In this document: positions 4,491 to 58,689 of the stretch, piece after piece
Numbering within the stretch: the stretch's first letter is position 1
Layout of the letters: every line of letters begins with the position of its first letter
Origin: Sphingobium sp.
GTDB taxonomy: Bacteria; Pseudomonadota; Alphaproteobacteria; Sphingomonadales; Sphingomonadaceae
Assembly (NCBI GenBank): GCA_017744605.1
Contig: JAGIAZ010000016.1
Span: forward strand, 1 to 64,000
Direction: 5' to 3'
DNA length: 64,000 bases
Notes under the pieces: model-generated
The model's input: the letters and a program-made list of their open reading frames with translations, nothing else
Database searches by the model: none
Told to the model about the DNA's origin: nothing
Program-made: the position numbers and the translations under genes

Positions 4491-4578
4491 CGTCATGCTG
4501 AACTCGTTTCACCATCCATTCTGGAGCCGACCACCATTGCAAGGCCGCCACGGACCCTGAAACAAGTTCAGCATGACG
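4491..4578. repeat. REP-like inverted repeat (element C)
   Basis: CGTCATGCTGAACTCGTTTCA at 4491-4511 pairs with its reverse complement (one mismatch) at 4558-4578; the 46 bases between are not strongly structured. The same arms, GTCA-CTGAACTTGTTT, recur at 39764-40064. It lies between ruvA and ruvB and would form a long stem in the transcript. Confidence 0.75.
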
Positions 4579-18013: not shown

Positions 18014-18069
18014 GGCGATTGTCCCTCGAGGCAAGGGAATAGCTGTTCCCCGGCGAAGGCTGGGGAACC
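18014..18069. repeat. Degenerate half of element B
   Basis: GGCGATTGTCCCTCGAGG followed by AGGGAATAGCTGTTCCCCGGCG resembles, in reverse orientation, one end of element B at 39782-39942 and 58560-58643. The other terminal repeat is missing; the sequence runs directly into element A copy 1. Confidence 0.5.
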
Positions 18070-39763: not shown

Positions 39764-40064
39764 CGTCACCCTGAACTTGTTGGTGATTATCCCGTTCGAG
39801 CAGAAGTTGTTCCGCGGCGCAGGCCGGGGCCCAGTTTCGATGCGAAGCATCGAACCTACTATTGGACACGCGTCTCTGTTCGGTCTGGACCCCGGCCTGC
39901 GCCGGGGAACAGCCTATTCCTTGTCTTAAGGGTATAATCGCCAACTTGTTTGTGCAGGTACGCCTGCGGCTCTAAGGTCCATCTTTCCAGAGAAACCGCC
40001 GCGGGCCAGGCGGACTGGATGCTGGAGCCGGAGGCGTGCCTGCACAAACAAGTTCAGCATGACG
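39764..40064. repeat. REP-like inverted repeat (element C copy 2), interrupted
   Basis: The left arm CGTCACCCTGAACTTGTT (39764-39781) continues after an insertion as TGTGCAGGTACGCCTGCGG; the right arm ends GGCGTGCCTGCACAAACAAGTTCAGCATGACG (last base 40064) when read through 40033-40064 in two parts. Without the insertion the arms pair almost fully. It lies between nupC and the MFS pseudogene. Confidence 0.8.
39782..39942. mobile_element. MITE-like element B, 161-bp copy with 8-bp target duplication
   Basis: Ends are GGTGATTATCCC at the left and GGGTATAATCGCC at the right, which are imperfect inverted repeats. AACTTGTT is present on both sides (39774-39781 and 39943-39950). Removing the element and one AACTTGTT restores the uninterrupted arm of element C. 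Inside, CGGCGCAGGCCGGGG and CCCCGGCCTGCGCCGGGG are inverted. It encodes no protein, so it must be moved by a transposase elsewhere. Confidence 0.85.
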
Positions 40065-58547: not shown

Positions 58548-58559
58548 TCCCGCCTGGAG

Positions 58560-58643
58560 GGTGATGATCCCGTTCGAGCAGGTCGCTGTTCCCCGGCGCA
58601 GGCCGGGGAACAGCCTATCCCTTGTCTTAAGGGTATAATCGCC
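58560..58643. mobile_element. MITE-like element B, 84-bp copy with 8-bp target duplication
   Basis: Left end GGTGATGATCCCGTTCGAGC and right end AAGGGTATAATCGCC match the ends of the 161-bp copy at 39782-39942. GCCTGGAG stands on both sides (58552-58559 and 58644-58651). In between lies the perfect hairpin CTGTTCCCCGGC-GCAG-GCCGGGGAACAG. It is a shorter internal form of the same element, located just before tgt. Confidence 0.85.
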
Positions 58644-58689
58644 GCCTGGAGGGGCTGTCATCTCGGCTCGGGCGCGCTAAAGCGCCCGG

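Follow-up and report, generated by a model that had tools for sequence, protein, structure and literature searches.

A probable IS1595-family miniature element with REP-like cargo in a Sphingobium genome, flanked by 8- or 9-bp target duplications and often placed at palindrome centres

The window analysed in this work is the 64,000-nucleotide stretch formed by bases 1-64000 of contig C7 of a Sphingobium assembly (genome G000; 3.37 Mb, 86 contigs, 80.79% complete). It harbours two copies of a short element, here called B. Copy 1, the long form (161 bp), lies at 39782-39942 on the forward strand, between perfect 8-bp direct repeats of AACTTGTT (39774-39781 and 39943-39950, both forward). It starts with the left terminal sequence GGTGATTATCCCGTTCGAGCAG (39782-39803, forward) and ends with the inverted right terminal sequence GGCGATTATACCCTTAAGACAA (39921-39942, reverse). 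Copy 2, the short form (84 bp), occupies 58560-58643 on the forward strand between perfect 8-bp repeats of GCCTGGAG (58552-58559 and 58644-58651, both forward). Both elements, with their terminal repeats and 8-bp flanking repeats, had been proposed in the original prediction, and re-reading the letters confirmed their coordinates and sequences, with the qualification that the terminal repeats are imperfect (12 of the first 16 bases match in copy 1 and 11 of 16 in copy 2). The base just after the right AACTTGTT of copy 1 is an extra T; from these letters, copy 1 may possibly have originated with a 9-bp AACTTGTTT duplication that lost one T at the left junction.

Copy 1 is inserted into an older REP-like hairpin (39764-40064), with its left arm at 39764-39781 and 39951-39981 and its right arm at 40016-40064. 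Stretches 39943-39981 and 40016-40054 form arms of 39 nt that are 85% complementary, and the outer arms (39764-39785 and 40043-40064) are 86% complementary. This pairing agrees with the earlier claim that deleting B and one repeat rebuilds the left arm opposite an intact right arm. Rejoined without B, the target folds poorly. Pieces related to this hairpin are present elsewhere in the genome, and a sequence match at 4554-4575 on the reverse strand marks an empty REP hairpin of the kind targeted, GCTGAACTTGTTTCAGGGT. Genome-wide, the intact REP hairpin has 21 matches at three mismatches or fewer, 9 of them exact; among the 21, at least C14:10501-10522 forms the edge of a B copy.

A similarity search of the genome gave 116 matches to B or its parts; 40 of 80 first-look candidates were scored, and the census may be incomplete. 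Searching for the ends at up to three mismatches gave 26 left and 23 right matches, and the reversed-pattern controls gave 0. There were 29 two-ended copies, copy 1 included (25 from a scan of fetched loci and 4 located in printed sequence), 52-166 bp long, or 313 bp with a nested insert, with imperfect terminal inverted repeats (TIRs). Loci L003, L034, L036, L037, L039, L041, L047 and a left end near C14:31092, where an end is lost or decayed, stand outside the 29. Perfect direct repeats of 8 bp flank four copies (L001, L002, L005 and window copy 1, L019) and perfect repeats of 9 bp flank four others (L010, L021, L028 and L035); nine copies have one mismatch, four have two and eight are worse. 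The original prediction was to be abandoned if most copies lacked 8-bp duplications. Perfect 8-bp repeats are indeed confined to the four copies named, which partly counts against it, but 8- or 9-bp repeats with at most one mismatch were found in 17 of 29 true pairs, compared to 56 of 812 mispaired flanks of different copies. Chance as the source of the duplications was ruled out by this mispaired control. That the direct repeats stem from chance or from recombination between REPs is scarcely credible: the flanks of six copies (L014, L018, L022, L024, L033 and L038) come from two halves of an inverted REP pair, which speaks for it, but perfect repeats are also found at sites that are not REPs (L001, L002, L005 and L010).

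Five of the eight poorly flanked copies (L014, L018, L022, L024 and L033, with B inverted in L024) are bordered on each side by approximately 40 bp of homologous flank. These common outer flanks fit a single insertion copied inside a larger repeat, and by their letters the five look like one such insertion copied later. L047 is also among the B copies inside a larger repeat with a common flank of approximately 40 bp per side. L007, L020 and L038 are without a direct repeat, and are either unexplained or eroded. L003 (C6:44669) and L034 (C6:32466), which are outside the counts, are the left and right halves of an apparent single B copy, about 12 kb apart; AACCTGGTT adjoins each half, GGTATAGC-like letters and a repeated CCCCGGCCTGCGCCGGGG border each, and perhaps a larger element was inserted into the cargo of this copy. 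In L010 (C4, near 48700) and L011 (C14, near 10400), a palindromic insert of about 148 bp (GAGCATCGAGCC...CACCGCTC) breaks the B copy close to its right end; the insert seems to duplicate TA, and part of its sequence also stands alone beside L049. The middle of the cargo is inverted in L007, L024, L032, L037 and L040, compared to the other B copies.

One insertion could be compared with orthologous junctions. Copy L002 (C7:97775-97858) lies between the genes for porphobilinogen deaminase (hemC) and uroporphyrinogen-III synthase (hemD), as identified by Pfam. It duplicates GCATGATC, in which the hemC stop and the hemD start overlap; with both signals inside the duplicated letters, both genes remain whole. 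Of 25 relatives, 13 had a match to the joined flank, and the junction was readable in 12 of these 13 (L247 was without a hemC match). It was uninterrupted in all 12, reading GTGA, which in L248 stands after 18 extra bases. The empty sites expected from the original prediction were thus found insofar as the insertion is absent, but the target 8-mer itself is not conserved in relatives at that distance. The uninterrupted junction also argues against chance or recombination as the origin of the direct repeats.

The interior of B is a pair of inverted REP-like palindromes in the form of about 160 bp and one palindrome in the 84-bp form. In copy 1, this REPIN-like cargo spans 39808-39911, with inverted arms at 39808-39834 and 39885-39911 around a spacer; in copy 2, the lone REP-like palindrome lies at 58585-58614, with 13-nt arms that are 100% complementary. 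Two inverted REPs acting as a unit, which is what defines a REPIN, are thus present in the long-form cargo only. The short form can, on its letters, be derived from the long one by a deletion between repeated GCCGGGG letters. In most copies of this genome, 25-34 bases of shell stand outside the cargo on each side. At 18014-18068 in the window, a solitary REP-like piece related to the cargo was matched without shell ends, and in genome G028 the interior is present without the shell at at least eight places (8 of 40 candidates scored). L049:2549-2600 (C14), on the other hand, is a 52-bp copy of B made of shell only, placed in a REP with a direct repeat of 8 of 9 bases. Since the interior is itself a REP- or REPIN-like palindrome, B is, judged from its letters, a MITE shell around REP-like cargo.

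The inverted palindrome pair and its shell-free occurrence in G028 would also be expected if B was a REPIN-type unit moved by a RAYT (REP-associated tyrosine transposase), the flanking repeats being incidental. Perfect duplications of 8 and 9 bp are not expected of RAYT units, which are not known to make a target-site duplication (TSD). The conserved shell outside the palindrome and the shell-only copy L049 point the same way, making movement by a RAYT most improbable. The features of a MITE were found in B: it is short and non-coding, has TIRs and many copies, shows duplications on insertion and, in relatives only, has ends in common with an autonomous element. The original prediction that B is a non-autonomous MITE and not a passive REP is supported by these duplications, the empty junction and the IS1595 ends in relatives, which are described below.

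A partner transposase had been predicted to exist, from families such as ISL3, IS66 or IS1595. No IS1595 transposase was found in the B-bearing assembly itself (81% complete), while IS1595 transposases (PF12762) were present in three of six genomes tested. In genome G209, a match to the left end of B and a transposase lie within one 1635-bp insertion sequence (IS) with ends GGCGATTATCCCCTTGCGACAA and GGTGTTTATCCCTTTCGAGCAA and an 8-bp TSD; its transposase has domains PF12760 and PF12762 and matches NF033547. By locus, both domains were detected in L113 and L126, and NF033547 in L113 and L114. The left end of B shares 19 of 22 bases with the right end of the G209 IS, and its right end likewise shares 19 of 22 with the best IS1595 end. 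Relatives of the G209 transposase were found at 33 loci in named genomes, in 30 of 94 genomes of the genus and in 42 of 397 genomes of the family at 1e-60, with 0 in the B-bearing genome. The expectation of a partner is thus borne out by IS1595 insertion sequences with like ends, but in relatives only. Searched for in plasmids, the ends of B had no match. Searched in 397 genomes, the left-end pattern had matches in 26. The loci read were sorted by eye: two (L096 and L109) are MITEs and two others (L092 and L086) IS ends; L095, L097 and L103 resemble shells but show no clean direct repeat, and most of the rest look unrelated.

We scanned 88 loci for IS ends, leaving out L112, L115-L118, L148-L150 and L181 (repeats, fragments or loci without an end pair). 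These gave 49 TSD-supported end pairs, 45 distinct ISs after removal of duplicates and 44 ISs with a perfect TSD; the other 39 of the 88 loci were cut by contig ends, truncated or had ends outside the pattern used. The TSD of L142, with 7 of 8 bases, is doubtful. These partner ISs measure 1.3-3 kb, and the one in G209 is large enough to hold a 165-aa ORF that belongs to no Pfam family. GGYGATTATCCCCTT and then ACAAGTA, ACATGTA or CATACGT make up the typical ends, and most copies have a terminal GG. As in the IS1595 family, the partner ISs have a DDE domain with a zinc ribbon, and an 8-bp TSD in 36 of 44 cases. We infer that an IS1595 transposase moved B in this lineage. Other TIR families with 8-9-bp duplications (IS1, ISL3, IS66 or IS256) were weighed as a source of the partner. 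IS1 makes duplications of 8-9 bp, and the start of B, GGTGATNAT, resembles the IS1 end. However, an IS1 partner was rejected, as PF03400 had 0 matches in the B-bearing genome and only two weak matches in 61 genomes of the genus, with no matching end pair there. IS1595 insertion sequences of bacteria of the same family share the end letters of B (GGYGATTATCCC ends) and its REP target; with the search among these rivals covering IS1, a partner from another family is very unlikely.

The duplications of B are not of one fixed length. Among the 17 copies with at most one mismatch, 9-bp repeats were found at 10 of 12 REP sites compared to one of five other sites (L010) (Fisher p 0.03, with sites sorted by eye). 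Window copy 1 and L011 have 8 bp despite their REP sites, the former in a REP variant that folds poorly. The predicted 8-bp duplication holds perfectly for both window copies, but the family as a whole has TSDs of 8 or 9 bp. MITE-sized elements with IS1595-type ends were found at REP centres in five further genomes, with 12 elements: L096 and L109 in G474; L211 and L218 in G326; L214, L225, L231 and L235 in G334; L216, L226 and L232 in G214; and L223 in G292. Nine of the 12 have perfect 9-bp direct repeats and three have one mismatch. The G474 MITEs were found by the left end alone; the other ten came from a pattern in which the REP centre was itself required (29 matches in 8 of 397 genomes, several without a partner end; reversed control 0) and so they show breadth and not preference. 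The interiors of these MITEs differ between genomes and look palindromic by eye. An inverted-repeat routine marked the cargo in full in L096 and the G334 copies, and in part in L211, L223 and the G214 copies; in L218 and L109 it picked up the TIRs instead.

The ISs show a similar variation. The 44 perfect TSDs comprise 36 of 8 bp, six of 9 bp and two of 7 bp. All six 9-bp TSDs are at REP hairpin centres: AACTTGTTT in L123, L126 and L136, AACTCGTTT in L206, GACCTGATC in L134 and AATCAAGTT in L135. Four 8-bp TSDs (L182, L192, L201 and L124) are at the centres of other palindromes, and 32 of the 36 8-bp sites are not palindromic; the arm score used for palindromic sites is reached by about 2% of random positions. 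A palindrome centred on the TSD (at least six of seven arm bases complementary) was present at 9 of 43 sites compared to 4 of 2064 other offsets (binomial p 2e-16, the sites not being fully independent; L208 was dropped for its short flank). The association of 9 bp with a palindrome has a Fisher p of 3e-5, again for sites that are not fully independent. In nine of ten palindromic sites, two stem pairs per side lie inside the TSD, so that the TSD equals the loop plus 4; L124 has one. Folding of two palindromic sites gave the same stems. Inside the TSDs of the 32 non-palindromic 8-bp sites, pair complementarity was 0.31-0.38, which we do not count as evidence of symmetry. GCTTGAC, or GTCAAGC as its complement, lies at the TSD edge in five IS1595 insertions (L151, L155, L156, L158 and L159) and is possibly a second target motif. 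In the transposase tree (44 rows, with fragments L147, L159 and L206 out and L190 and L197, which have AACTTGTTT repeats, added) one supported clade holds five of the seven 9-bp rows, and the 9-bp cases are accordingly not all independent. L134 and L197 lie elsewhere, L197 in a 13-row clade that otherwise has 8 bp.

The 9-bp length and the centring could equally arise if a transposase dimer bound half-sites defined by their sequence (CCYGRA..., on both strands) in duplex DNA, with no folded hairpin; we give this an even chance. Letters like CCCYGRACTTG are common to the two main REP targets, the poor folding of the window target fits such a mechanism, L012, L019 and L021 use variant REPs that lack a good right arm, and one transposase clade is found at the same REP type in five of five cases. 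Against it, palindromes with other stems (L182, L192 and L201) were entered by other transposases at an equivalent point with respect to the loop.

Taken together, B is very probably a MITE of the IS1595 family with 8- or 9-bp TSDs, frequent targets at palindrome centres and REP- or REPIN-like cargo. A DDE transposase encoded elsewhere would recognise both ends of B (roughly 25-30 bp), and its staggered cuts at insertion would produce direct repeats of 8 or 9 bp. Often the target would be the exact centre of a palindrome, above all the REP hairpins CCCTG-AACTTGTTT-CAGGG and CCCCG-GACTTGATC-CGGGG. In these hairpins, cutting within the stem, two base pairs away from the 5-nt loop on either side, would give 9 bp, while palindromes with a 4-nt loop and ordinary sites would give 8 bp. 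The REP hairpin is a preferred and not an accidental kind of target, and target geometry may set the stagger. More tentatively, and at slightly less than even chances, sphingomonad IS1595 transposases may read a palindromic or folded target that sets the TSD at loop plus 4, and their MITEs may repeatedly carry REPIN-like palindromes. If this is true, TSD length would belong to the target and not to the transposase, and IS1595 shells and REP-like units would each spread by way of the other. TSD length, usually taken as a fixed family trait, varies here with the kind of target in one IS group and in one MITE family of a single genome, and because loops of both 4 nt and 5 nt exist among the natural targets, the cause of this length can be tested. 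Travelling as the cargo of a transposase-driven shell is also a possible concrete route for the spread of REP-like palindromes.

Insertion into hairpin loops is known for IS1397. IS1595 MITEs and REP-targeting ISs are each already known separately. The IS1595 family is listed with the groups ISPna2, ISH4, IS1016, IS1595, ISSod11, ISNwi and ISNha5 (PMC8101967). The partner ISs resemble this family in their DDE_Tnp_IS1595 domain and zinc ribbon, mostly terminal GG and prevailing 8-bp TSD, and differ from it in the 9-bp TSDs, all at REP centres, in their length and in the room for a further ORF in G209. Variable TSDs are also described for the related Merlin group (8 or 9 bp; PMC8101967) and IS1016 (7-9 bp; PMC12561309); the portions available of these sources mention no link between length and palindromes. 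An IS1595 MITE of Haloquadratum walsbyi, related to ISHwa6, has 165 bp, an inverted repeat of 25 and a direct repeat of 8 (PMC3852290). To the extent that this MITE is described there, B is like it in being short and non-autonomous, with IS1595 ends and an 8-bp direct repeat, and unlike it in the REP-like cargo and the REP-centre targets with 9-bp repeats. The cargo of B is like the REPIN/RAYT system, as far as the available excerpts describe it, in its two inverted REP-like palindromes (PMC3116915, PMC8266576), whereas in B the REPIN-like unit rides in an IS1595-type shell with TSDs. Among the matches listed in open-licence literature, there was no report of palindrome-centred insertion or loop-following TSD length in IS1595, or of IS1595 MITEs with REPIN-like cargo. 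REP targeting is known for members of IS3, IS110, IS4, IS256 and IS5, at least in the sections available of PMC1525189. According to the same sections, ISRm22 of Sinorhizobium meliloti inserts into REPs just at the axis of palindromy, as B and the partner ISs often do, but it differs in its 6-bp repeats, and no target-linked change in length is mentioned for it there. With the elements described here, IS1595 joins the families for which REPs serve as landing sites.
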